A stretch of 21,677 nt of DNA, taken from a virus. The stretch covers positions 1-21,677 of IMG/VR virus record IMGVR_UViG_3300028030_000145. One strand, written 5' to 3'. Positions 150 to 21,677 of this stretch are shown here, one piece after another (within the stretch, counting starts at the first letter, position 1; every line of letters begins with the position of its first letter). Position numbers and translations under genes: made by a program. The notes below the pieces were generated by a model. That model was not told the DNA's origin. It worked only from the letters and a program-made list of their open reading frames with translations, and did not search any database.

Positions 150-1725
150 ACCGCAAGTCAAGGAGGCGATGGGCAACGTGGTGAGGCTCTCGCCGTCCAT
201 CGTCAAACTGATGCGCTACAGGGGCCAGGAGGCTCTTTTGGAGGGGCCTGCCCGCACCGGCAAAAGTTTTGGCCTCTGCCTCTACGCCCGCACCCTCTGC
301 GAATGGTTCCCCGGCGTGAAGGGCCTCTTCGTGCGTCAGACGCGCAAGTCGCTGAACGCCTCGATCCTCACTCTCTGGGAAGATCTCTTAGGCAAGGACC
401 ACCCGGTACTGCTACCTCGCAGGCAGAAGCGGACGCGGGACGACTACATCTTCCCCTACGCCGAGAACACGGTCGACGAGGTGACCTACAAGGGCGTGAG
501 CGAGATTCACCTGATCGGGATGGACAACCCCGAGCGGCTGATGAGCACCGAGTACGACTTCATTTTCGTCTTCGAGGCCACGGAACTCTCGCTGCGGGCG
601 TGGGCTCTTGCGTTCTCGCGCTTGTCGAACGGCCACCTTCCGTGGAACTTCCAAGTCGCCGACTGCAACCCGGCAGCCGAGACACATTGGCTAAACCTGC
701 GTGCCGACGAGCCCGAGATGGAGGGCAACCAGGAGACGGGGCAGAACAAGATGCTGCGCATCCCCACGAATCTGAAGGACAACCCGAAGTTCTGGGACTC
801 GGAGCGCAAGGCGTGGACGCCGCAAGGTGTCGCGTACAACCGCAAGCTCGACAACCTCCCACCGCTTGAGAGGGCTCGCCTTAGAGATGGCAAGTGGGTG
901 AGCGCCTCGGGGCAAGTCTTCGAGGCTTGGCGGCAGGACCACCACGTTGTCCAAGGCAAACTGCGCAAGCGGCAGCTCGAGTCCCACCACGAGTGGTATC
1001 TCGATCCGATCCGAGACGAGTTCGGCAACGGCGACTTCGAGCAGCGCACGGTCGAGTATTTCCTCGTGGGTGTGGACTGGGGCTTCCGTCCAGACCCCGG
1101 CACAGCGGCTCTCTACGCGGTGGACGATCACGGGCGCTTGTTCGTGGTCTTCGAGTACTACATCACCGGCAAGGCGCTCGACTGGTGGGCGCAGAAGATC
1201 GTCGGGTGGCAGAAGCGATACGACGTTCGCGCCATCATCTGCGACGTGCCCGAAGAGAAGAGCCGGACGCTGAACGACATGATGGGGCACAAGCTCGGCA
1301 TGGACGGCAGGCCGATAGCTCGAGTCGCGAAGAAGGGGACGGGCTCGGTGGCTTCGGGCATCGACATCTTGCGCTGGCACTTGGACGACGACGAGGACGG
1401 CGAGCCCCGCTTGCGCTACTTCGCAACCTCCCCGATGGTCACAGACTCCTACCTCGTGGATGAGATGGTGCCGACCTGCGGGCCGAAGGAGTACCCCGGC
1501 TATGTCTACCACGTTCGCGTTGATGGCAAGCCCAACAAGGACGCGCCGGTCGATCTGAACAACCACGCCATCGACAGGGACCGCTATGTCGCCACCTACA
1601 ACTGGGACAACAAGCACCGATCACGCAAGGTCCCCGAGCTAGTCAAGAACCCCGGAACGCTCGGGGCTCAACTGAACATGTCCAAACGAATCAAGGACGC
1701 CTTCAAAGCGGCGCAGAGCAAATGA
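133..1725 (+). CDS. terL: terminase large subunit (DNA packaging ATPase and nuclease)
   Basis: This is the motor protein that pumps phage DNA into the prohead at the portal and cuts the concatemer. Counting from ATG 133 it has 530 residues, a normal size for the family. The N-terminal ATPase half has a Walker A motif GPARTGKS at about residues 38-45 and a Walker B strand FIFVFE at about 143-148, followed by a conserved ATE. The C-terminal half looks like the RNase H-fold nuclease: VGVDWG with Asp about 315, IICDVPEE with Asp about 371, and NNHAIDRDRY with Asp about 481, which are the expected acidic metal ligands. The stop overlaps the portal start (ATGA), so the two are probably translationally coupled. 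No small-subunit gene is confirmed in this window. Confidence 0.95.
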   Translation: MVMATKPQVKEAMGNVVRLSPSIVKLMRYRGQEALLEGPARTGKSFGLCLYARTLCEWFPGVKGLFVRQTRKSLNASILTLWEDLLGKDHPVLLPRRQKRTRDDYIFPYAENTVDEVTYKGVSEIHLIGMDNPERLMSTEYDFIFVFEATELSLRAWALAFSRLSNGHLPWNFQVADCNPAAETHWLNLRADEPEMEGNQETGQNKMLRIPTNLKDNPKFWDSERKAWTPQGVAYNRKLDNLPPLERARLRDGKWVSASGQVFEAWRQDHHVVQGKLRKRQLESHHEWYLDPIRDEFGNGDFEQRTVEYFLVGVDWGFRPDPGTAALYAVDDHGRLFVVFEYYITGKALDWWAQKIVGWQKRYDVRAIICDVPEEKSRTLNDMMGHKLGMDGRPIARVAKKGTGSVASGIDILRWHLDDDEDGEPRLRYFATSPMVTDSYLVDEMVPTCGPKEYPGYVYHVRVDGKPNKDAPVDLNNHAIDRDRYVATYNWDNKHRSRKVPELVKNPGTLGAQLNMSKRIKDAFKAAQSK

Positions 1726-3518
1726 GCACACTATTCAGCAAGGAACTACAGCGATGGTCCGGCATCAACGCCGCGCAGAAGGCTGACAAGGAGGCGATTG
1801 AGAAGTTCAAGAGCATCCGCAACTCGATCCAGGGCAAGGACAAGGCCCCAACAAATATCGCGTGGGAGTACATCACGCTCGTCCTGCCGCAGATGGTCTG
1901 GAAGAACCCTGGCCTGGTGGTCGAGTCGTCTGTCCCCGGTGAGGCGGCCTATGACTCCATCGGCTTACAGTTCGCCTTGCAGGCGCTCATGGACGATCAG
2001 AAGCTTGCCTGCGAGTGGGAGCAAATTTTCGCGGACTCGCTCGCCTTCCGAGGCGTGTCGATGGTGACGACTGAACTCAACTACGCGCCACGGTTCGCGG
2101 ACGGGATCAAGTTCCTGGGCTGGGACGGGAAAGAGGCCACGCTGAAGAGTGGGCAGGAGGTCGAGACCCCGCGCATGGTCAGGCTCGACCCGACCGATTT
2201 CGTGGTGGATCCAGACGCACTCTCGCCGTCTCGAGCCCGCTTCATGGGCCATTGCTGGGATGCCTATGTCGAGGACCTCGAGGAACTCTCAGAGCAGGGC
2301 GAGGCTTGGAACATGGACCGCATCCTGGCAATCTCTGGAGATCCTGGCTATGCGAGTGCGACGAACACCGAGCGCGAGACGCTCAAGGTCTGGGAGATGT
2401 TCGTCCCTGGCAAGTTGGACCCCATCGCCCTTGATGCGCACGAAGGCCCCGAAGACCCCGAGAGTCCACAGTACGCAGACCTCTACAACGGCACCGTTTA
2501 CACGATGGCGAGCGGCGGAGAGGGCGGCAAGGACATCCGCAAGCCACGCCTCTACCGGGGACCAAAGTGCGGCCCCTACGGGATCTACACGGGTTCGCCA
2601 ATCCCTGGGGTTGGAACGCGCATGGCCCCCCTCATGGCCGTGCACCACCAGATCACCGAAGCCACGCGCATGGAGAAGGCACTTGTGCGCGCCGTGGACG
2701 CTTACAAGCGCATCGTGCTAACCGCCTTCAAGGAGTATGAGGAAGCGATCAAGGACGCGGGCAACGATGGCATTGTGAGCCTGGAGATCTCGGGCCAACT
2801 GCTCAAGGACGCGATCAAGGAGGTGGTTGTCGGTGGCCCGTCGAAGGAGCTGATCGACTCCGTGTCTATGGCGCGGCAGAACCTTGACGAGGCCCTGGGG
2901 CTCTCGCAGACGAAGAAGGGCATCGCTACGGCTGGAACCACGGCAACCGCTGAGAGCATCGCCGACAAGGCCGGAGACATGCGCCTAGCCATGCACCGCG
3001 AGGGAGTCCAGCGCACCGCCTGCGAACAGGTGTGGGTCATGGGCTGGCACGTTGAAAACTCGCCCGACTTCATGATTACGCTGCCACCGGCTGCGCTTGA
3101 GAAGTCCATGCAGAGCCTTGGAGTGCAGATGGACCAAGGGGACGGCGCTGTTGCGGTCTACCAGGGCGGTGGTTCACTCCACGCCTTCGACCCAACAACC
3201 CCAGGGACAGCCTACGACGGCAAGCGGATCAAGTTCGAGCCGCAGTCGATGGAGCGCACGAGCGAGGGCGTCCAGCAGCGACGAGCCATGCAAACCCTCG
3301 AGGCGGTTCAGATCATCTCACAGATGGACCCTGCCCTTCCACGAGACAAGATCGCTGAGGATCATGGTCGGAGGCTCAACATCGAGGGCCTAGGAACCTA
3401 CTTCAAGGACACTTCGGCTCAAGAGCCACAACAGCAGCAGATGGCCAGGATGAGCCCTGACGGGGCCTCTCTTGACGGTGTGCGTGGCGGCGGGCAGTCG
3501 CAGGCGGACAACCTCTAA
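1722..3518 (+). CDS. portal protein
   Basis: This is probably the portal, which forms the twelve-subunit ring at one capsid vertex through which DNA enters and leaves. The call rests on its position directly after the terminase and before the scaffold and capsid genes, its length of 598 residues (typical), and its sequence character. The N-terminus is helical and charged. The segment PRMVRLDPTDFVVDPDA at about residues 150-166 is of a kind seen in podovirus-type portals. Long helices follow around residues 310-430. The last 30 residues are rich in Gln and Gly and probably disordered (QEPQQQQMARM). It begins inside the terminase stop codon and ends in a TAATG overlap with the next gene. No strong Shine-Dalgarno precedes it, so translation probably depends on coupling. 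Confidence 0.85.
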   Translation: MSTLFSKELQRWSGINAAQKADKEAIEKFKSIRNSIQGKDKAPTNIAWEYITLVLPQMVWKNPGLVVESSVPGEAAYDSIGLQFALQALMDDQKLACEWEQIFADSLAFRGVSMVTTELNYAPRFADGIKFLGWDGKEATLKSGQEVETPRMVRLDPTDFVVDPDALSPSRARFMGHCWDAYVEDLEELSEQGEAWNMDRILAISGDPGYASATNTERETLKVWEMFVPGKLDPIALDAHEGPEDPESPQYADLYNGTVYTMASGGEGGKDIRKPRLYRGPKCGPYGIYTGSPIPGVGTRMAPLMAVHHQITEATRMEKALVRAVDAYKRIVLTAFKEYEEAIKDAGNDGIVSLEISGQLLKDAIKEVVVGGPSKELIDSVSMARQNLDEALGLSQTKKGIATAGTTATAESIADKAGDMRLAMHREGVQRTACEQVWVMGWHVENSPDFMITLPPAALEKSMQSLGVQMDQGDGAVAVYQGGGSLHAFDPTTPGTAYDGKRIKFEPQSMERTSEGVQQRRAMQTLEAVQIISQMDPALPRDKIAEDHGRRLNIEGLGTYFKDTSAQEPQQQQMARMSPDGASLDGVRGGGQSQADNL

Positions 3519-6480: not shown

Positions 6481-6512
6481 GCTCCCCGCGCACCTGATCC
6501 TGCGTGGGGGGC
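6481..6512 (+). other. strong RNA hairpin between decoration and adaptor genes
   Basis: Bases 6481-6492 can pair with 6501-6512 to give a 12-base-pair GC-rich stem with two G-U wobbles, around an 8-base loop (CCTGATCC). No T-run follows, so it is not a standard intrinsic terminator. It lies in the largest gap of the window (73 bases), just after the two most abundant head proteins. It may stabilise the upstream mRNA end, act as a processing site, or attenuate reading into the tail genes. Confidence 0.6.
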
Positions 6513-6524
6513 CGACCACACACC

Positions 6525-6530
6525 CGGAGA
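6525..6530 (+). promoter_or_regulatory. ribosome binding site deciding the adaptor start
   Basis: CGGAGA ends six bases before the ATG at 6537. A GTG at 6504 in the same frame lies inside the right arm of the hairpin and has no such site, so 6537 is the better start. Confidence 0.6.
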
Positions 6531-6536
6531 CTCCAC

Positions 6537-7511
6537 ATGGTTCTCGTCGCTCGAAAAGTCAGCGCTTACATCAAGCACGCCCTCGGCGGCGAACTCTCGG
6601 CGGATGTCCCGTGCCTGGACGTAGCGAACCAAGCCGCAGTCTCTATGGAGTCGTCTCGTAAGTGGTCGTATCTGATCCGAAGTGCGAGAGGCTTGAACTT
6701 CCGCTCACCCGTGACGGGCACAGGTGCGACCTACACGGCGGCCACGAAGACGTTGACCGGAACGGAGTTGGGGTCCTATCTCTACGTCCCCGGCGATAGC
6801 GTCTCCATCACGTTCGGCGGCGCACCGTTCGGCACCTACGATATTGTTGGGTCAGACGCTGCCGCTGGAACGGTGACGCTCGACGCGCCCGCCCTGACGG
6901 CCAACGTCATCGAGCTGGGCTTCACGGTCAACCAGCCGCGCATTCTCCTACCTAGCGACTTCGGGCGGCTTATCAGCCTCCACGGGGCGACGAACGGTTC
7001 TCTTCGGTACATCTACCCGGATTCCATCTCGGGTCTCGTCGAAGAGGAGGCTTACTTTAACGCCAACACGTCCTTCACCACCGGCTACCACGTTGAGTGG
7101 AACAGCGGGGCGGATAAGACGCAGCCAGTCGCCACATTGCGTATCACGCCCGAGCCTACCGCTGGGGAGTTTGACGCTCTCTCTGCGGTCTACTATCGCG
7201 AGTGGCCTGACCTGACGGCGGACGATGACATTGTTCCGATCCCTTCGTACATGGAAGCGCTCTACATTCAGTTCTGCCGAGCCTTCGCGATCGGGTACGA
7301 AGGCTCGGGCGAAACAATCGCGGCGATGCAGGGGGCCGTGGCTGCGGTCCAGGCTGGTCCGATCTACCGCAATGCCGTGGTGCGCGACTCTGCGCAACAG
7401 CTCGAGGAGGGCCGCATCCGTAACCGTGGAATCTCGTCTGCCGTCGATGGTGGAGTGTCGTTGACCGATGCACTCGCTCGGACGCAGACCTCGGACGTGG
7501 ACTTCTTCTAG
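6537..7511 (+). CDS. probable head-tail adaptor protein
   Basis: A 324-residue protein (from ATG 6537) stands where podoviruses carry the adaptor ring that joins portal to tail nozzle. The N-terminus MVLVARKVSAYIKHALGGEL is helical. The middle (residues about 50-160) is beta-rich, including TLTGTELGSYLYVPGDSVSI, and could be an inserted barrel. The C-terminal third has YREWPDLTADDDIVPIPSYM followed by a helix EALYIQFCRAFAIGYEGSGE (about residues 219-260) and a helix with RNAVVRDSAQQLEEGRIRN. A 'DD-P-IP-ME' turn leading into a helix of this kind is seen in several phage adaptors. The stop is followed at once by the next ATG (TAGATG). The function is inferred. A minor head protein is the alternative. 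Confidence 0.5.
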   Translation: MVLVARKVSAYIKHALGGELSADVPCLDVANQAAVSMESSRKWSYLIRSARGLNFRSPVTGTGATYTAATKTLTGTELGSYLYVPGDSVSITFGGAPFGTYDIVGSDAAAGTVTLDAPALTANVIELGFTVNQPRILLPSDFGRLISLHGATNGSLRYIYPDSISGLVEEEAYFNANTSFTTGYHVEWNSGADKTQPVATLRITPEPTAGEFDALSAVYYREWPDLTADDDIVPIPSYMEALYIQFCRAFAIGYEGSGETIAAMQGAVAAVQAGPIYRNAVVRDSAQQLEEGRIRNRGISSAVDGGVSLTDALARTQTSDVDFF

Positions 7512-12849: not shown

Positions 12850-13091
12850 AGCAACTCAGGCGGAAGCGCGTGAGCGGAGCGGCTCGAGCGATTGACTCGC
12901 AGCGTCTCAGGCGAGCGGACCCGGCGATCAAGGACCGGGACCTTGGGATGGGTCTCGAACTGGACAAAGACGGTCGGCTCTCTGTCGATGCGTCGAAACT
13001 AGGACTTGCCACGGCGGATAACGTTGCGGCGTTGGAGGCTAAGATAGCCACTCTGGAGGCCGTCTTGAAGGCGGAAGGATTTTTGACATGA
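12846..13091 (+). CDS. small basic protein with C-terminal coiled coil
   Basis: 81 residues. The first 30 are very basic (MKQLRRKRVSGAARAIDSQR). The segment LELDKDGRLSVDASKLGLAT looks like the short beta turn-strand unit common in phage fibre stems. The end, VAALEAKIATLEAVLKAEGF, is a clear short coiled coil with leucines in heptad spacing, likely to oligomerise. It overlaps both neighbours by four bases (ATGA at each end). It may be a small tail-fibre adaptor or a trimerisation element. No closer identification is possible. Confidence 0.6.
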   Translation: MKQLRRKRVSGAARAIDSQRLRRADPAIKDRDLGMGLELDKDGRLSVDASKLGLATADNVAALEAKIATLEAVLKAEGFLT

Positions 13092-13648
13092 GTTTCTTCA
13101 GTAAGCTATTGGACGGCGGGAAAGGCGAGGCCCAGGATAAGAACGAGGCAAACGCCGGGAAACTCTGGGACCTATTCGGAACCGAGAGCGCGTTCGGCAA
13201 GAGCCAACTTTTCAAAGGCTTGGCCGCGCTCGATACGGGCAAGACGAACGCGCTCGCCAACGCCTCGAAGTACGGAACGCAGGCCACGAACCAGATCCTT
13301 GCGGGGCAGAAGCAAACGGACGCCGCGAACACCGCGAGCCTTGCATCCAAGGGGCTTCTGAACACAACCGTTGGAGCGAACATGCAGGCGCAGACGCAGA
13401 GCGTGACGAACAACTCGCTCTCGACGCTTGGCGAGAAGCTTGGTCTGTTGAACGCGAACATCGAGACGGACTACGCGGCGAAGAAGAACGCTGGGCTTCA
13501 GACGCTCGCTCAGTACGCGATGGGTACAGTCGGAACGGCAAGCAGCATCACACCGCAGTACCAAGGTGGGCAGGGGCTCGCTGGTGGCATTGGTCAAGGT
13601 CTCGGAACGGCATTGGGCGCTTGGGCTGGTTCCAAGTTTGGGGGCTGA
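13088..13648 (+). CDS. probable internal virion (ejection) protein, small
   Basis: 186 residues after a good ribosome binding site (GGAAGGA about 9 bases upstream). The N-terminus MSFFSKLLDGG is amphipathic. The middle is rich in Ala, Asn, Gln and Thr and helical (NQILAGQKQTDAANTASLAS). The C-terminus GLAGGIGQGLGTALGAWAGS is a glycine-zipper-like hydrophobic segment able to sit in a membrane. Small Ala/Gly/Gln-rich proteins of this kind, placed after the tail genes, are typical of the podovirus proteins that leave the virion with the DNA and line a channel across the cell envelope (P22 gp7 or T7 gp14 type). Homology to a named family is not shown. Confidence 0.55.
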   Translation: MSFFSKLLDGGKGEAQDKNEANAGKLWDLFGTESAFGKSQLFKGLAALDTGKTNALANASKYGTQATNQILAGQKQTDAANTASLASKGLLNTTVGANMQAQTQSVTNNSLSTLGEKLGLLNANIETDYAAKKNAGLQTLAQYAMGTVGTASSITPQYQGGQGLAGGIGQGLGTALGAWAGSKFGG

Positions 13649-13651
13649 TCT

Positions 13652-15283
13652 ATGGGTTTGTTGATACAAACTGGAGGCGCGGCAGCGCAGTTCGGCGCGG
13701 GCCTGGGAGCAGGGATCGCGGGCGGGGTGCAAACCGGAATGGCCCAGGCTCGCGAGGACGAACTCCGTCAAGAGGAACTCGCGCGCCAACAAGCGGACGC
13801 TGACCAAGTGATCGCCGTGCTTGGCGACTCGATGGACCGCAAGTTCGAGAACGAGGCGGGCAAAGTCCCCGACACGGTTTCGATGCGCGACCGCTACGGA
13901 GACGAGACTCCTGGGATGAGCCCTGTCCGGTCGATGCTTGACGGGCAGATGGAGAACCCCGAGGACGCGAGGATCCGCAAGGCGCAGGCTCACTACGAGG
14001 CTCTGCTAGGCTCGATCTCGAACCCCGAGGCTGCGGCGATGCTTGCGCAGTCGGCTGACCAGAAGCTCCTCTCGATGCGTCAAGGGCGAGCCATGACCGT
14101 GCTTGAGAAGTCGCTTGAGTCGTCGGTGGCTTCTGGGCGACTCTCCGAAGACGAGGCTCGTGGGTACGCCGAGGCTCTCCAGTCTGGCAAGGACCCGATC
14201 TCAGTTCTCGACGCATGGCAGACCGACAGGGAACATCGGCTCAAGATCGAGAAGGCTGGGCGGCTGAAGCAGAAGAAGATCCTGAGCTTCGGTTCGATGG
14301 CCGAGAGCATGGCCGCGAAGGCTGAGGCTGAGAAGACTGGGCAGTACGGTCCGTGGTACAGCCAGCAAGCCGAGTTGATGCAGGAGTTCACCGACGAGCA
14401 GCAAGCCCGCTACGAGATGGACCCCGAGGGGTACGATGCCCAAGCGGCTGAACAGATCGCGAACAGCATCCGGTACGCGCCGAATCCGTGGATCGCGAAG
14501 CAACTGCGTGAGGAGAAGGCCGCAGCGACGATGGAACTCAAGCGTAACGAGGCCCTGTGGCGTGGCGCGAACGACCGCGTGGTTGCCGCAGCCAAAGCCC
14601 TCCAGGCGGCAGGCTCGAGTCTCGATCCGACGGCCCTGAAGGCTGCACAGGGCGAGATGGAGGCGGCGACGAAGAACGCGGAAGAAGTCTTCGCTGGTGG
14701 CGGTTCGGGCCAAGCGGCTCCGGTGGCTGACCCCGGCGTGGTTGATCCTGCAACGGGTGGAGGCGATGCCGAGAAGAGTCCTGAAGCGAAAGCGGTCGAG
14801 TACGCTCGCCGTGGGGCCTCGGGCCAAGAGGCTTGGGATAAAGCGAAGACGGTCGAAGAGGTTGATGCGATCACAGCCGAGAAGATTGCTCCCGCGTTGT
14901 CGGTGCTCGGGATCTCCATTGAACCTGGCGATCTAGCCGACTTCGGCGCAAAGGCTGATGAAGTGGTTGCTGCGGTCCAGGAACTTCGGACGACCAGCCC
15001 CGAAGCCGTTGACGAGATTGTTGGGCTCATCATGGCGTCAGTCCAGATGGGTGACTCGGCCCGAGAGGCCATTGCTGAACGAGAGGCGGCGAAGAAGGCC
15101 AAGGCCGACAAGCGCATGTCTCGCCGCAAGGAGCAGCATGCCGACATGCAAGCCGCTGAGGCCCGCGACAAGGACAAGCGCACGGCATACCAGCGGTCCC
15201 AGGACGAGAAGGGGCGCAAGGCCAACAAGAAGGCCACGAACTCCCGCAAGTCAGGCACCACGCAAATCCCACTTCCCGAGTAG
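13652..15283 (+). CDS. probable internal virion (ejection) protein, large
   Basis: 543 residues, starting three bases after the previous stop. It opens with a Gly/Ala hydrophobic segment, AAAQFGAGLGAGIAGGVQTG, then long charged helices rich in Ala, Glu, Gln and Lys for most of its length, broken by a Gly/Pro-rich linker near residues 348-375. The last 63 residues (about 481-543) are strongly basic (KKAKADKRMSRRKEQ, then RKANKKATNSRKSG) and could bind DNA. The glycine-zipper start resembles the hydrophobic C-terminal segment of the preceding protein. Position and character suggest a partner in the ejection apparatus. No lytic transglycosylase or peptidase motif is visible. Confidence 0.55.
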   Translation: MGLLIQTGGAAAQFGAGLGAGIAGGVQTGMAQAREDELRQEELARQQADADQVIAVLGDSMDRKFENEAGKVPDTVSMRDRYGDETPGMSPVRSMLDGQMENPEDARIRKAQAHYEALLGSISNPEAAAMLAQSADQKLLSMRQGRAMTVLEKSLESSVASGRLSEDEARGYAEALQSGKDPISVLDAWQTDREHRLKIEKAGRLKQKKILSFGSMAESMAAKAEAEKTGQYGPWYSQQAELMQEFTDEQQARYEMDPEGYDAQAAEQIANSIRYAPNPWIAKQLREEKAAATMELKRNEALWRGANDRVVAAAKALQAAGSSLDPTALKAAQGEMEAATKNAEEVFAGGGSGQAAPVADPGVVDPATGGGDAEKSPEAKAVEYARRGASGQEAWDKAKTVEEVDAITAEKIAPALSVLGISIEPGDLADFGAKADEVVAAVQELRTTSPEAVDEIVGLIMASVQMGDSAREAIAEREAAKKAKADKRMSRRKEQHADMQAAEARDKDKRTAYQRSQDEKGRKANKKATNSRKSGTTQIPLPE

Positions 15284-15286
15284 CCC

Positions 15287-18200
15287 ATGACTTCCGCAGC
15301 CGAAGCCCTCGCCGCATCTCTCGACAAGGCAGGCATCGCCCCCCCGCAAGAGGTTAGCCCGTCCGATGTCGCCGGGTTCGGGGACGTGCTTGAGGAGAAG
15401 TTGCGGGCGGCTGGGTTCACGCCGAAGCCGATCCCTCCATCCAAGCTGGAGTTCGCTCGGGAGCGCATGGCACCCATCGAGCGCGCTGCTGGCAACGTTG
15501 CGAACGCGGCCCAGGGGTTCTCCGAGAACCTCGCAAGCCTGTACGCCTCGGTCCCTGAAACGGCGGGCATGGCGAGCCAAGCCATAGCGGGTTCGCCGAA
15601 CACGCCGGAGATCGTCAGTAGGTTCATGGGGAAACTCGGCGGCCTCGAGCGCGGTTTCGCGGGCAAGATGCGTGAGGCGGCGGCGGTCATGCCTGACTCG
15701 TACTACGTGGAAGGGCAGCCACTCGTTGAACCTGGGTTTGGCACCTCCATCGCACAAGGCTTCGGGTCAGCCGTCGGTTTCATCGCAGGAGGCGAAGCTC
15801 TCGCGGCAACGGGCATCGCTCGCGGGCTCGGAATCGCCGGGCTCGGCGCTCTCGTCGAAGGCGAGTCGATGGTCCGGGAAGCCGAGGCTGCCGGAGCGAA
15901 CACCGAGCAGAAGTGGCTCGCGTGGATGATCGGTGCTGGCGCTGGCGCTACCGAGGCCGTTGGTGCTTCGTCCGTCCTGGCCCCCCTCGACGCCCGCATG
16001 GGCGGGGCGCTCCTGAAGAGACTCGCGGGGTCCAACCTCGCGGTCAAGATGATCGCTGAGGGCACCGAGGAAGGCGCGCAGGAGACCGTGCAGCAGCTCA
16101 TCGAAGACTTCGGGCGGCAGTACGTCGCGCAGTACGGCGAAGACAAGACGTGGAGCGAGATCATCTCCGACGCCACGGAGCAGGGCGCTCCAGCGTGGGT
16201 GGTCGGCGCACTCCTGGGTGGCGCTGTTGACGTTGCCGGAATCCACAAGCAGAAGTCGGACCGCAAGAAGGCCGCGAAGGAAGTCGTCTCCACCATCGGC
16301 GACATCGGCCTCGAAGAAGCCTCGAAGGCAGAAGGCAATGGCAAGGACAAAGACCTCACGCCCTACGCCGCCGTCGAAGCCTTCCGAGCCGACAATCTCA
16401 AAGCCATCGACGCCAAGCTCAAGGCCGCTGAAGGGAAGATCGCAGCCGGTGACGAGTCAGGGACGTGGGCCGAGGAGAAGACGAGGCTTGAGGCGGCACG
16501 GGAAGCCGTGGCAAGCGCAGACACGCACGTTCTCGGTGAGAGCGAAGACCCAGCCGAAGAGAAGCTATCGGGCACCCTGGAGCTTCTCAGGCAGTCTGGG
16601 GCCGATATCCCCAGCGTTATCATGGTGGACTCTGCGGAGAACCTGCCGATCCAAGGCGCGCAGTTCGGGGGCCAGATCCTCCTTGACGCGAGCCGGACCG
16701 AGCAAGTGCTGCAGGGACTCCTCTTCCACGAGGCGTTCCACCACGCGGTTCCGATTGGATCACCGCAGATGCAGGAGCTCGTGGGTACGGCGCGTGAGCA
16801 GTTCCCCGAGTTGACTGAACGGTTGCGTGCGCTCTACATGGCGCGCCTGACTGACGCGGGCCACGGCGACGCCTTCGCACACCTGCCGACCGAGGAGCGT
16901 CTTGCCAAGGAGTTCGAGGAAGCCTTCGCGATTGGCGCGGAGTTGATGCCCGAGCTGATCGACAACACGCTTCGAGACGGGATGGACGCGGAGAAGTTGC
17001 GGACCCAGCCCGGCCTTCGGGGGATGCTCGCCCGCGTGATCGACTACGTGTTCGGCGCGCTGAACAAGTTGGGTATCAACATCAAGACGGGCCGGATGAA
17101 GGAGGTCGCCGCGATCCGCGAGGCCCTCCTAGGCCCCGTGCAGGACTTCGACGGCGACCAGATCGCGGACTTCGTGAAGGCCGTCTCGAAGGCGTACAGC
17201 GGGCTCTCAGAGGAGCAGAAGGCGTCGGCGGCTGAGGAGTTCGGGAAGTCCGACTGGTGGGCGAGCGAGACGCCGCTGCTGGGTGAAGGCCAACGTGAGG
17301 AGCAAGGACCTCTCGCTGGTGTGGCGTCCGAGGACATCCAGGCAGCGCAAGCGGTAGACGTGGACGCGCTTGAGGCCGAGGTCGCAGCGGAAGAAGCGAA
17401 ACCGAAGAAGGCCAAAGCGCCCACGCCGAAGGTGACGGTCCAGGAGCCGATGACTCCGCAGAAGGCTCGCGACGAGATGACGCCCAAGCAGCGCCAACGC
17501 GAGGCCCGTCAACGCAAGCGGCTCCGTAGGCAGATCGACGCAGCGAAGGCTGAAGGCGACACGAAGAAACAGCAGCGGCTTGAGCGCAAACTCGGGCAGA
17601 TCGACCCGCACCGTGGGGCGCGTAGAGTTGAGCCGTCGAAGAGCCAGCAAGCGAAGGACATCGCGGAGTTCGGCAGCGACGAAGAGGCGGTCGGGCGCTT
17701 CTCCATCGCCCCTCAGACCCAACTCGGCTTCTACTCGAACACCGAGGAAGCCTTCGAGAAGATGGTCGCCAAGTCGGGTGCGAAGAAAATCCGAAGCGAC
17801 ATCCTCGTCCAGCGTGTGCTTGCAGCGGGCGGGAACAAAGAAGAGATCGCGTGGATGGGGCTTGCGGACTGGGCAAAGGAGCACCCCGAGAAGCGCATCC
17901 CCGTTGAGGAAGTGCGCGAGTTCATGCGCGAGAACGGGATCGTGGTGGGTGAGAAGTTGCTGGGGGTAGATGCCAAGCACGCCACCTACCAGCTCCCCGG
18001 TGGCGAGAACTACCGCGAGTTGCTGCTCACGCTGCCGGACAAGGGTGGGGCGTGGAACATCGAGGACCGAGACACGGGCGAAGTCCTAGAGAGCCATCTA
18101 TGGAGAGCGCAGGCGGAACACCGGATTGAACCACTAGAGAGGGAGTACACGGGAATCAACCTCCGCATCGCACAGGAGGCTCCTCGTGCAAACTACGACC

Positions 18201-21200
18201 ACGGCCACTATGGTGACACCCCCAACGTCCTTGCGCACGTCCGCTTCAACGAGCGTACAGGCCCTAACGGCGAGCGCGTTCTGTTCATCGAGGAAGTGCA
18301 GAGCGATTGGCACCAGGCCGGGAGGGAAAAGGGGTACGCCGGGATCAGCGCCGACGCACTAGAGGCTGAGTACAAAGTAGACCTGGAAGCGTTCTATTCC
18401 GGCAAGGGCAGCAAGAGTGAAGCCGAGTGGACGAGGCTTTCAGAGCGAGTACGCGAGTACGACGAGCGGGAGAGCAAGCGAAGAAAAGGCGTCCCCGAAG
18501 CCCCGTTCAAGACCGCGTGGGAGAAGCTGTCCTTCCGCCGCATGGTGCGCTGGGCGGCAGAGAACGGCTTCGACACGGTTGCGTGGACGACAGGGGTGCA
18601 GCAGGTTGAGCGGTACGAGACTGAGATGCGCCAGAAGATCGAGAGCATCGAATGGCGTCCAGGCAACGAGGAGTTGACATCGGTTGTGGTGCAGCCCGTC
18701 TCTGGCAGCACGATGACCTTCGAGGTGGATGGCGAGGGCATCGTCAAGGACGCCTCCGTAAATGGCGCGGTAGACAAGCACGCTGCCGAGTTGTTCGGGA
18801 AGTCCATCGCTGCTCGCGTTATCGCAGAGCCCTCGGGTAAGATCGAAGGCGACGACCTCACAATCGGCGGCGAGGGCATGAAGGCCGCCTACGACCAGCG
18901 GCTCGTTGGGATCGCCAACAAACTCGGCAAGCAGTTCGGCGCGAAGGTGGGGAGCATCTCCATCGACGCGGGAGATGGGTTCCGTGTCGAGAAGTACGGA
19001 GACATCTATCGACTAACCGAGAACGGCGTGGTGAAGGCCACGTTCTCGACCGCCGAGGAGGCTTGGGCAAAAGCCGAAGAGATGGGCGGCGCTCCCGTCC
19101 ACGCTCTCCCCGTAACGGAGAAGATGCGCGACTCGGTGATGCAGGGCCAAGCGATGTACTCCATCGCCCCCACAGAGGGCGAAGCGTTCCAGGACGACGG
19201 AGCGCAGCGTGAAGCGAAAATGCTTCGTGTGGTGAATGAGCATGGCGTTGAGGTTGTGCCAGTAATCTACGCCCCAAGCGAAGAGAAGAGGGGCCTTGAG
19301 AAGCGAACGGACGGGCAGATGGTCTTACACGCGAGCGGTGTGTTCGCAAACGACCTAGGGTCCCTAAGGCGCGTTTTGTTCCGCGAGGTTGACAAGTTAC
19401 TGAGTTCACTCCCCGCTGGGGTGTTTGTGCGAACAACGAATAGGAAGGAAGATTATGAGCACCTATCCAACGGCACACATCACGGGTCAACAGACTGGTC
19501 CTCTGGGGGTTTCGAGACAGGCCATGAAGTGATCAAAGAGGGTGGCCTGTCCGTGGCCTTGAGGCTCGAAACTCCAGCAGACTACGCATATCTTGTTAGC
19601 GGCACAGTCGTTGGCGAGGGAACAGATGGCGAACCGTTGCTCGATTCGTCTACGGCTAAACCGGTATCGCGCCTCATGTCGCACACGGACATGGTTAAGC
19701 ATCTCGCAAAGGGCAGGAAGACGCGCTTGCGGGAGATAGGCTTGAGTGAGGATGACGCACGAGCCCTTGCGGTTCAGCCATACCTGAAACTCGTCGACGC
19801 GAGCGACCCCGACATCCGCCGGAGCGTAGAGGCCACCTACGCGCACTCCGAGCTACGCAAGCGAGGGTTTACCCTTGAGCGTAACAGGGGCGGTTCGGCT
19901 TACTTCCAGCGTGGAGGACTATCCGTGCGGGTGTCTGACCATGACGTGCCCATGACTCCTGAGCGTGAACACGCTGCGGCCAACGGCGGGTTCACGTGGG
20001 CGGACTCTGGGTGGAACTTAGTCTTGGACGCCGACACCGACAATGCCGAGATCGACGAGTTCTTGGCGAGGCTAGATTCAGAGCACCCAGCGCCCCCGCA
20101 AGCAACTGGGCAAGTTCGTAAGGCTGCCAAACGTCTCGTGCGAGAGCTGCGTGAAAGCGGTTCTAAGTGGATTCTCCTCGAAGGGTCTGAGACGCCGTGG
20201 TTTGAGTCGCAATACATTCTCGATAGAGCTAATGCGTGGAAACAACTCCTTGATGACGGCTCGCCAAATGCTTTGTTTCGTGCTATCGAGCACACTCTCT
20301 CCAACCCAGAGGCTGCAAACCAGAAGCTGGACATCAGGCGGAGCGTAGCCGGTGACGAGCACGAGACGATTGCCTTCAACCGAGGCTGGGGAGCCGAAGC
20401 CGAGTCCTGGCTTGCTGACTCGCTGATCCACGTCCGCAAACTCCAGAAGTCCCTCTACGTCCCCGAGGGCGCAGATTGGGACGAGCGCGAGGTGCGGAGC
20501 AAAGGGAAGCTCATGCGCGACGTGGATAAGTTCGACGCCGAGTTCGTTCAGCCAATGGTTGAAGCGATGAACGCCGGGGACATCAGCATCGACGAGGCGC
20601 ACCTGTACCTTGCGGCCCTTCACTCGTTGGAGCGGAACGCTACGCTGATCGGTAGGGATGCAGCCCTCGCAAAGCAATGGCAGAAGTACGAAGCGCGGAA
20701 GGCCGAACTCGACATCTGGTCAAAGAAGAAGACCGCGTTCGACAAGTGGAACCGCGAGAAGGCCGATGGGGTCAAGAAGCGCACCGCGCGGCCCGAGAAC
20801 CCAGGGCGCAAGCCTGCGAAGATCGCCAAGCCTCGAAGCAAGCCGAAGGGCTGGAGCACCGAGAAGAAGCCCGGCGCGTGGTTGGCGAAGAGCGAGGCCG
20901 AGCGGGTCATCAGCGACATGATGGCGCGCCCCAACGCCAAGCGCTTCCGCAGGCTCCGCAGGCTGAACCGGAAGATGCACGAGTGGAAGCTGAACCTCAT
21001 CGAAGAGGCGGGGCTCGAGCCGCCCGAAGTGATCGCGAAGATCAAGGCGCTCGGCTGGAAGGATTACGTCCCGATGGTCTCCGTGATGAAGGGCAGACGC
21101 GCCATCGGTCGGCCCAAGGGCTACTCGGTTGGCGGCAAGGACGTTCGCCGCATGGGTGGGCGCAGAAGCGAGCCTGACAACGTGATGGTTGCCGGGATCA

Positions 21201-21677
21201 CGGACGTTCTAAGTGCGCTTGAACGGCGCGAGAAGAACGAGGTGATGAACACCTTCGCCAAGCTCGTCGAGGCCAACCCGGATCCGGGGCTTTGGGAGAC
21301 GGTTGAGGCTTCGCTGGCTGACGTGAAGATGACAAGCCAGGAAGACCTTGAGGCGGGCGTCGAGCCCAACGTCTTCCGCGCCTTGTGGGATGCGAGGATC
21401 GACAAGCGCGATGCCGCTGTGGGCTTCAAGCGCGACGGGAAGCAGCACTTCATCGTGTTCCACCCTCGCGGCAAGCACCTTGCGGAAGCCCTCGATGGTT
21501 CCAACATGGTGGACCTTCGCGGCATCCTTGGGCCGTTCTCGAAGATTAACCGCTACTACGCTGCGGCGAACACGTCCTGGTCGCTGAACTTCATCGTGGA
21601 CAACTTCCGCCGTGACTCCCTCTTGGGTGGCTTGCGCATCGCGCTTGAGCTTTCCACGAAGGACGCGGCGAAGGTTC
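15287..21677 (+). CDS. giant multidomain 'polyvalent' protein, 3' end beyond the window
   Basis: The frame is open from ATG 15287 to the right edge: 2,130 complete codons without a stop. The Shine-Dalgarno is weak and the start lies three bases after the previous stop. In order: a Gly-rich hydrophobic region (about residues 150-192), an EGTEEGAQETVQQLIEDF helix (258 on) and a hydrophobic WVVGALLGGAVDV (304 on); a metallopeptidase-like module with HEAFHH (481-486) and a LAKEFEEAFA helix (539-548); a Lys/Arg-rich linker (about 733-780); RFSIAP (804-809); a conserved region with YRELLLTLP (909), QSDWH (1005), PFKTAW (1073) and WTTGVQQVERY (1100); YSIAP (1291-1295); unassigned modules with EGTDGEPLLD (1444) and SDHDVPMTPERE (1550); a second basic linker (about 1806-1865); and a C-terminal region with INRYYAAANTSWSLNFIVDN. 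This matches phage polyvalent proteins, thought to be injected with the DNA. Confidence 0.85.
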   Translation, partial: MTSAAEALAASLDKAGIAPPQEVSPSDVAGFGDVLEEKLRAAGFTPKPIPPSKLEFARERMAPIERAAGNVANAAQGFSENLASLYASVPETAGMASQAIAGSPNTPEIVSRFMGKLGGLERGFAGKMREAAAVMPDSYYVEGQPLVEPGFGTSIAQGFGSAVGFIAGGEALAATGIARGLGIAGLGALVEGESMVREAEAAGANTEQKWLAWMIGAGAGATEAVGASSVLAPLDARMGGALLKRLAGSNLAVKMIAEGTEEGAQETVQQLIEDFGRQYVAQYGEDKTWSEIISDATEQGAPAWVVGALLGGAVDVAGIHKQKSDRKKAAKEVVSTIGDIGLEEASKAEGNGKDKDLTPYAAVEAFRADNLKAIDAKLKAAEGKIAAGDESGTWAEEKTRLEAAREAVASADTHVLGESEDPAEEKLSGTLELLRQSGADIPSVIMVDSAENLPIQGAQFGGQILLDASRTEQVLQGLLFHEAFHHAVPIGSPQMQELVGTAREQFPELTERLRALYMARLTDAGHGDAFAHLPTEERLAKEFEEAFAIGAELMPELIDNTLRDGMDAEKLRTQPGLRGMLARVIDYVFGALNKLGINIKTGRMKEVAAIREALLGPVQDFDGDQIADFVKAVSKAYSGLSEEQKASAAEEFGKSDWWASETPLLGEGQREEQGPLAGVASEDIQAAQAVDVDALEAEVAAEEAKPKKAKAPTPKVTVQEPMTPQKARDEMTPKQRQREARQRKRLRRQIDAAKAEGDTKKQQRLERKLGQIDPHRGARRVEPSKSQQAKDIAEFGSDEEAVGRFSIAPQTQLGFYSNTEEAFEKMVAKSGAKKIRSDILVQRVLAAGGNKEEIAWMGLADWAKEHPEKRIPVEEVREFMRENGIVVGEKLLGVDAKHATYQLPGGENYRELLLTLPDKGGAWNIEDRDTGEVLESHLWRAQAEHRIEPLEREYTGINLRIAQEAPRANYDHGHYGDTPNVLAHVRFNERTGPNGERVLFIEEVQSDWHQAGREKGYAGISADALEAEYKVDLEAFYSGKGSKSEAEWTRLSERVREYDERESKRRKGVPEAPFKTAWEKLSFRRMVRWAAENGFDTVAWTTGVQQVERYETEMRQKIESIEWRPGNEELTSVVVQPVSGSTMTFEVDGEGIVKDASVNGAVDKHAAELFGKSIAARVIAEPSGKIEGDDLTIGGEGMKAAYDQRLVGIANKLGKQFGAKVGSISIDAGDGFRVEKYGDIYRLTENGVVKATFSTAEEAWAKAEEMGGAPVHALPVTEKMRDSVMQGQAMYSIAPTEGEAFQDDGAQREAKMLRVVNEHGVEVVPVIYAPSEEKRGLEKRTDGQMVLHASGVFANDLGSLRRVLFREVDKLLSSLPAGVFVRTTNRKEDYEHLSNGTHHGSTDWSSGGFETGHEVIKEGGLSVALRLETPADYAYLVSGTVVGEGTDGEPLLDSSTAKPVSRLMSHTDMVKHLAKGRKTRLREIGLSEDDARALAVQPYLKLVDASDPDIRRSVEATYAHSELRKRGFTLERNRGGSAYFQRGGLSVRVSDHDVPMTPEREHAAANGGFTWADSGWNLVLDADTDNAEIDEFLARLDSEHPAPPQATGQVRKAAKRLVRELRESGSKWILLEGSETPWFESQYILDRANAWKQLLDDGSPNALFRAIEHTLSNPEAANQKLDIRRSVAGDEHETIAFNRGWGAEAESWLADSLIHVRKLQKSLYVPEGADWDEREVRSKGKLMRDVDKFDAEFVQPMVEAMNAGDISIDEAHLYLAALHSLERNATLIGRDAALAKQWQKYEARKAELDIWSKKKTAFDKWNREKADGVKKRTARPENPGRKPAKIAKPRSKPKGWSTEKKPGAWLAKSEAERVISDMMARPNAKRFRRLRRLNRKMHEWKLNLIEEAGLEPPEVIAKIKALGWKDYVPMVSVMKGRRAIGRPKGYSVGGKDVRRMGGRRSEPDNVMVAGITDVLSALERREKNEVMNTFAKLVEANPDPGLWETVEASLADVKMTSQEDLEAGVEPNVFRALWDARIDKRDAAVGFKRDGKQHFIVFHPRGKHLAEALDGSNMVDLRGILGPFSKINRYYAAANTSWSLNFIVDNFRRDSLLGGLRIALELSTKDAAKV
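16727..16928 (+). other. HExxH metallopeptidase-like module in the giant protein
   Basis: HEAFH at residues 481-485 fits the zinc-binding HExxH motif, here within GLLFHEAFHHAV. About 60 residues on, LAKEFEEAFAIG offers glutamates (542, 544 or 545) that could serve as the third ligand, as in related phage peptidase modules. Zinc binding and activity are inferred. Confidence 0.6.
18011..19168 (+). other. conserved QSDWH / PFKTAW / WTTG region of the giant protein
   Basis: Residues about 909-1294 carry a string of motifs that I recognise as recurring together in very large phage proteins: YRELLLTLP, NVLAHVRF, IEEVQSDWHQ, PFKTAW, WTTGVQQVERY, an AYDQRLVGIANKLGKQFGAK segment and a closing ALPVTEKMRDSVMQGQ. 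Its biochemical function is not known to me. Histidine, aspartate and tryptophan in QSDWH suggest a possible active site. Confidence 0.55.
21533..21677 (+). other. C-terminal polyvalent-associated region (LPD38-like), cut by the window edge
   Basis: From residue about 2083, PFSKINRYYAAANTSWSLNF and IVDNFRRDSLLGG resemble the helical 'N-x-F-hh-N-hhRD' pattern of the large-polyvalent-protein-associated domain 38, usually close to the C-terminus. The match is from memory of the family, and the region is truncated here. Confidence 0.4.

Follow-up and report, generated by a model that had tools for sequence, protein, structure and literature searches.

The locus and its gene neighbourhood

The DNA analysed here (the window) is an entire IMG/VR virus record of 21,677 bases, and its right end is taken up by one very long open reading frame on the plus strand, which starts with an ATG at 15287 and runs to 21676 without an in-frame stop. 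No stop is reached before the record terminates at 21677, so that the gene is cut at the right edge and lacks its 3' end. The 2,130 codons present make up 29.5% of the window, in agreement with a preliminary description, which had reported an unterminated frame covering nearly 30% of it. At this GC content a random open run of 2,130 codons has a chance of ~1e-27, and the frame shows coding composition along its whole length (GC1/2/3 = 0.66/0.44/0.77). The gene starts 3 bases past the stop of the preceding gene and lacks a clear ribosome-binding site there; the two genes are likely to be coupled in translation.

Directly ahead lie two genes on the same strand, encoding 186 aa (13088..13648) and 543 aa (13652..15283), which occupy the positions of gp14-like (first) and gp15-like (second) ejection protein genes, respectively. 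In the podovirus ejection operon gp14-gp15-gp16, a gene of ~200 aa is followed by one of 430-980 aa and by a larger gene (PMC8954989). The window order of 186, 543 and >2,130 aa follows this pattern and places the giant gene at the gp16 position; likewise, it resembles the order of gp67-69 in phage JC1 and of gp52-gp51-gp50 in phage N4, and a similar small-medium-giant order is seen in several relatives. The 186-aa product is 61% identical to its counterpart in the relative L025 (see below). As neither product has detectable sequence similarity to the JC1 or N4 ejection proteins, their assignment to ejection rests on position and size, and in this sense the giant gene does follow two ejection-type genes, as had been claimed.

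Further upstream and on the same strand, terminase, portal-like, capsid and adaptor-like genes are present. With the product of 6504-7511, the Pfam SU10 adaptor family scored narrowly above the cut-off (E=4e-6), and the SU10 portal was matched weakly by the gene at 1722-3518. A nearby cultured phage was not found: the portal and capsid had no match, and the terminase was ~31% identical at best.

A complete syntenic relative and the integrity of the frame

A protein search using an alignment of the QSDWH region (described below) retrieved L025 (IMG/VR 3300038306_000113), a viral contig of 40,668 bases in which the giant gene is complete (L025:2859-13055; 3,398 aa with stop). The two contigs are syntenic over terminase, portal-like, capsid, adaptor-like, tail and ejection-cluster genes; all window head/tail genes from g1 to g13 except g6 are matched in L025 at 29-61% identity (terminase 48-51%, portal-like 40%, capsid 41%, g9 40-47%, g11 58%, g13 61%). 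The giant proteins themselves share five in-frame blocks, comprising window residues 396-615, 804-893, 897-1295, 1499-1612 and 1704-2130. Block 1499-1612 follows the QSDWH domain in the window and precedes it in L025, where it lies beside an ART-PolyVal domain, indicating that modules move.

A frame of this length could also be an assembly artefact, i.e. a chimera of unrelated pieces or the product of a missed frameshift. The record does terminate within the gene, and GC3 (the GC content of third codon positions) shifts at residues ~1301-1700. However, the five blocks shared with L025 keep a single frame from residue 396 to residue 2130, speaking against a frameshift or chimera in this stretch; gene g13 upstream and the blocks flanking the GC3 dip all match this one relative, and the small module within the dip is present in L025 as well. 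No in-frame stop was found in 15287-21676. We consider an artefact extremely improbable.

The missing end can be estimated from 93 relatives that carry a region matching window residues 1690-2130 and whose frame closes inside the fetched DNA. In all 93, an LPD38-type tail follows this region in the same frame, and the part lying past the equivalent of window residue 2130 has a median length of 526 residues (quartiles 511-531). Extrapolated from these relatives, the complete window protein should comprise ~2,650 aa.

The N-terminal and zincin-like regions

Residues 1-395 (15287..16471) are rich in alanine and glycine and contain hydrophobic stretches at residues 172-190 and 301-319, suggesting a possible membrane or ejection region. 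A weak lead comes from phrog_2206 (virion RNA polymerase), which matched the region with E=0.07 and the corresponding region of L025 with 7e-4.

The adjoining residues 396-640 (16472..17206) are 31% identical to L025 and contain a HEAFH motif of the HExxH type (residues 481-485; 16727..16741), which reads HELQH in L025. H481, E482 and H485 as well as E545 (16919-16921), a candidate third zinc ligand, are retained in L025, and a model of low confidence puts both sites in helices. An HExxH motif with a downstream Glu on a second helix is what characterizes zincin-like metallopeptidases, so that the earlier assignment of a metallopeptidase-like module is upheld at the level of the motif. JC1 gp69 likewise carries HEAFH, and a hydrophobic-HExxH motif occurs in 32 of 193 related giant proteins, as compared to 0.38 expected from shuffles. 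An iterative profile search with the region found L025 as the sole relative, and a zincin fold was not among the structural hits for this region, which was modelled at low confidence. Motif and model suggest a possible peptidase. For polyvalent proteins, Iyer et al. suggested that zincin-type domains act in self-processing or in cleavage of host proteins (PMC5512222).

Weak Pfam and NCBIfam matches (DUF1090, PspA and others) fall on a charged coiled-coil stretch around residues 690-800 and were attributed to composition. None of the models in these libraries matched the window protein above the cut-off.

The QSDWH domain

The central part of the protein is a conserved, unnamed domain (residues 804-1305; 17696..19201) named here after its QSDWH motif (residues 1005-1009; 18299..18313), in which Q1005, S1006 and D1007 are invariant in 86 sequences. 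Altogether, 15 columns are invariant in 79 divergent sequences, and many of them are polar or charged. The domain was detected in 390 viral contigs and in 29 bacterial or archaeal assembly contigs, mostly MAGs, and it occurs on plasmids too. It is covered by no model in the copies of Pfam and NCBIfam searched. The proposal of a QSDWH module is supported, and this module is common to many phage polyvalent-type proteins. Two other labels were considered and dropped: LPD23 is not part of the domain, as it maps after QSDWH in L015, and the 'endolysin' label of phrog_7348 is uninformative, because this profile of 2,564 positions matches here only with its positions 1805-1954.

An AlphaFold2 model was obtained for residues 396-1312, which is confident over most of the QSDWH domain. 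Upon structural re-alignment, the best 50 rows were without exception chains of GNAT or GNAT-like type (Z 7.2-10.2, rmsd 2.9-5.2 A over 105-189 residues). Isocitrate lyase 2 ranked first with its C-terminal domain (Z 10.2, 3.5 A over 148 residues), and NatD and the toxins TacT and AtaT were further leading matches; we take these chains to be members of the GNAT superfamily. Foldseek gave a weak signal with the same model (E 0.18 at best). Assignment to GNAT by sequence was tried and abandoned: hhalign comparison of the 86 QSDWH sequences with 8 GNATs yielded a non-significant probability of 0.2%, and profile searches against the PDB returned no match. In the acetyl-CoA loop motif Q/RxxGxG/A, R1013xxG1016 is conserved, whereas the third position is not. 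Two other GNAT families have been listed in polyvalent proteins by Iyer et al. (PMC5512222).

Taken together, the predicted model makes a GNAT-like fold about an even bet, and an active acyltransferase, suggested by motif and model, is a more tentative proposal. Equally tentatively, QSDWH may represent an unrecognised family of GNAT-like acyltransferases injected by many bacterial phages and present on plasmids too, with a catalytic signature of its own, for which H974, H984, R986, E1003, Q1005-S-D, G1012-R, W1078, R1085 and Y1202 would be the candidates. If true, one host-modifying enzyme would be common to hundreds of giant proteins of phages.

Two relatives deserve separate mention. A protein of Dolichospermum phage Dfl-JY45 (L003:9406-16569; 2,387 aa) has the QSDWH domain twice and four stretches of ART-PolyVal. 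The cultured pelagiphage HTVC028P carries the QSDWH domain in gp34 (L005:12582-15446), the gene of which is placed between internal virion protein genes, making this phage a good system for addressing packaging.

Inserted modules

Behind the QSDWH domain, two modules are arranged differently from L025. Module 1 (residues 1320-1498; 19244..19780; GC3 0.57-0.70) is not found at this place in L025. Its residues 1378-1493 are 35% identical to an ORF of a gut phage, the sole relative found; this ORF (L006:18076-18402) lies directly behind a minor-capsid-like gene in the gut phage contig. Module 2 (residues 1499-1612; 19781..20122) is a small domain that also occurs in L025, at another position, and in L172. 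In L025, the ART-PolyVal domain (residues 1363-1510) adjoins module 2 upstream of QSDWH, pointing to cargo exchange within one phage lineage.

The best PDB sequence match of module 2 was 1whz (E=0.079), a weak lead to an entry deposited as 'hypothetical protein', which is presumably HicA. A phage 'toxin' family gave a further weak hint (E=0.4). The catalytic His of HicA (G-S/G-H motif) is absent from module 2, in which GGSAYF/GGSAYY replaces GGH; accordingly, if the HicA link is real, an RNA-binding remnant is more likely than a toxin.

GC3 amounts to 0.57-0.74 at residues ~1301-1700 as compared to mostly 0.73-0.94 elsewhere in the giant frame. The dip (19187-20386) coincides with the two modules ordered differently from L025 and can be regarded as a compositional mark of recent insertion. 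Dip and changed module order together mark residues ~1301-1700 as inserted.

The preliminary description had considered that the combination of modules may be new, and this idea is weakened. The general design is known: QSDWH together with the pre-LPD38/LPD38 tail occurs in 33 proteins, i.e. 32 besides the window, always with QSDWH first (33/33), and several of them also carry a zincin-type motif. By contrast, the inserts at residues 1320-1612 look particular to the lineage, and the exact set of inserted modules was not seen in the other proteins compared, as is usual for the class. Its further claim that unrelated modules are joined is well founded, as at least four separate modules can be told apart, each having different relatives and different positions in them, and no single family was found over the full length.

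The C-terminal tail

The visible C-terminus (residues 1704-2130; 20396..21676), which is cut by the record end, had initially been described as LPD38-like. This needs correction: the window stops ~200 aa short of LPD38, and the visible end is a largely helical domain without family name just N-terminal of it, designated pre-LPD38. In complete relatives pre-LPD38 always precedes LPD38, which lies ~200 aa downstream of the shared region; in L025, residue 2882 aligns to window residue 2130 and LPD38 spans 3080-3277. The window protein should likewise reach LPD38 ~200 residues past the edge. Pfam LPD38 (PF18857) is absent from the part present in the window and was found in all aligned members (42 of 43) but the truncated window protein itself. 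Pre-LPD38 is covered by no Pfam family in any of the 43 members.

The helical tail is the best conserved part across the family. A profile of pre-LPD38 and LPD38 matched residues 3595-4508 of JC1 gp69 with E ~1e-178, and pre-LPD38 alone matched this protein with E 9e-93. Structure comparison of the tail with the PDB gave a helical bundle at best (Z 7.7), which was judged not meaningful. Homology to the C-terminus of the N4 virion RNA polymerase was considered and rejected, as the profile comparison scored no better than unrelated or reversed controls.

Interpretation

We propose, with a probability of about 0.78, that the product of the giant gene is a polyvalent protein of ~2,650 residues which serves a short-tailed-type phage as its third ejection protein, the largest of the set, and which is packaged and injected together with cargo modules. 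The proposal is built on the open frame, synteny, sequence homologies, the conserved order of modules and a tail with a homologue in a virion protein. The largely helical pre-LPD38 + LPD38 tail (~950 aa) would be a conserved chassis, probably the packaging/ejection part, by which the protein would be held in the head; tail homology and gene order suggest packaging and injection. The protein might then be threaded into the host, either before the DNA or together with it, and its hydrophobic N-terminus probably contacts the envelope. A peptidase and one or more probable cargo enzymes would travel with it. The zincin-like HEAFH domain probably acts on the protein itself, cutting modules loose, or else on a protein of the host; QSDWH is the likely candidate for the cargo enzyme and might acylate a host protein, and residues ~1320-1612 would be exchangeable cargo. 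Action of polyvalent proteins against host defence is a proposal made by Iyer et al. for the class (PMC5512222), and by analogy the window protein may act there too.

Alternatively, the protein might be a purely structural conduit like gp16, with modules that are scaffolds or inactive remnants and have no effector activity. Gene order and position are just as known for gp16-type proteins, the part best conserved in the family is the helical tail, and module 2 has lost the catalytic His of HicA. On the other hand, the invariant and often polar or charged columns of QSDWH look enzymatic given the divergence of the sequences, HExxH and E545 are retained in L025, and enzyme domains, ART-PolyVal among them, occupy similar sites in relatives. 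This possibility is hence unlikely, but deserves more credit than the idea that the protein is made in the infected cell and never packaged, e.g. as a late host-takeover protein encoded beside structural genes. The latter would fit the finding of QSDWH proteins in contigs of bacteria and archaea and on plasmids, but it is hard to reconcile with a giant gene that closes an ejection gene cluster, with a tail homologous to JC1 gp69, which has been detected in virions, and with the location of the HTVC028P QSDWH protein between internal virion protein genes; we regard it as quite improbable.

With the giant gene read as an injected polyvalent ejection protein, the window protein belongs to a known class, and its interest lies in the QSDWH domain, which has no family name and may be GNAT-like. 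QSDWH and pre-LPD38 are among the most conserved domains of this class, and the searched copies of Pfam and NCBIfam contain a model for neither. Naming both, together with a result on QSDWH acyltransferase activity, would explain what a large set of injected phage proteins does.

Comparison with known systems

The giant protein of the syntenic relative L025 shares the zincin-like, QSDWH and pre-LPD38 regions with the window protein, but differs in its length of 3,398 aa, its ART-PolyVal domain, the placement of module 2 before QSDWH and another insert ahead of the tail. Phage N4 also has a giant third ejection protein, encoded behind genes of 150 aa and 644 aa: in its gp50 virion RNA polymerase, an HExxH domain is present and the C-terminal domain is large and mostly helical (PMC12633501). 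In contrast to gp50, no RNA polymerase domain was seen in the window protein, and the tails show no homology beyond controls.

With polyvalent proteins as defined in PMC5512222, the window protein has in common its giant modular build, with several unrelated domains in one large polypeptide, its late-gene setting among phage packaging and structural genes, and a zincin-type motif. Of the domains inventoried for this class, the window part contains the HExxH motif without a Pfam match, while its homologues carry LPD38, LPD1, LPD5, LPD23 and ART-PolyVal, with LPD38 and ART-PolyVal found in close homologues. The window part differs from the class in matching no catalogued domain, and QSDWH and pre-LPD38, which are its two best conserved domains, are without Pfam or NCBIfam model.

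A further comparison is with the DarB-like proteins gp69 of Burkholderia phage JC1 and gp75 of Bcep22, which share the pre-LPD38/LPD38 tail, the gene order and HEAFH. Unlike the window protein, JC1 gp69 has 4,515 aa, contains transglycosylase, methylase and helicase regions and lacks QSDWH. In purified JC1 virions, mass spectrometry identified gp69 by 51 unique peptides; the products of the two genes just ahead of it, gp67 and gp68 (196 and 510 aa), were detected as well (PMC9144972). The link between the tails makes packaging into virions directly testable.
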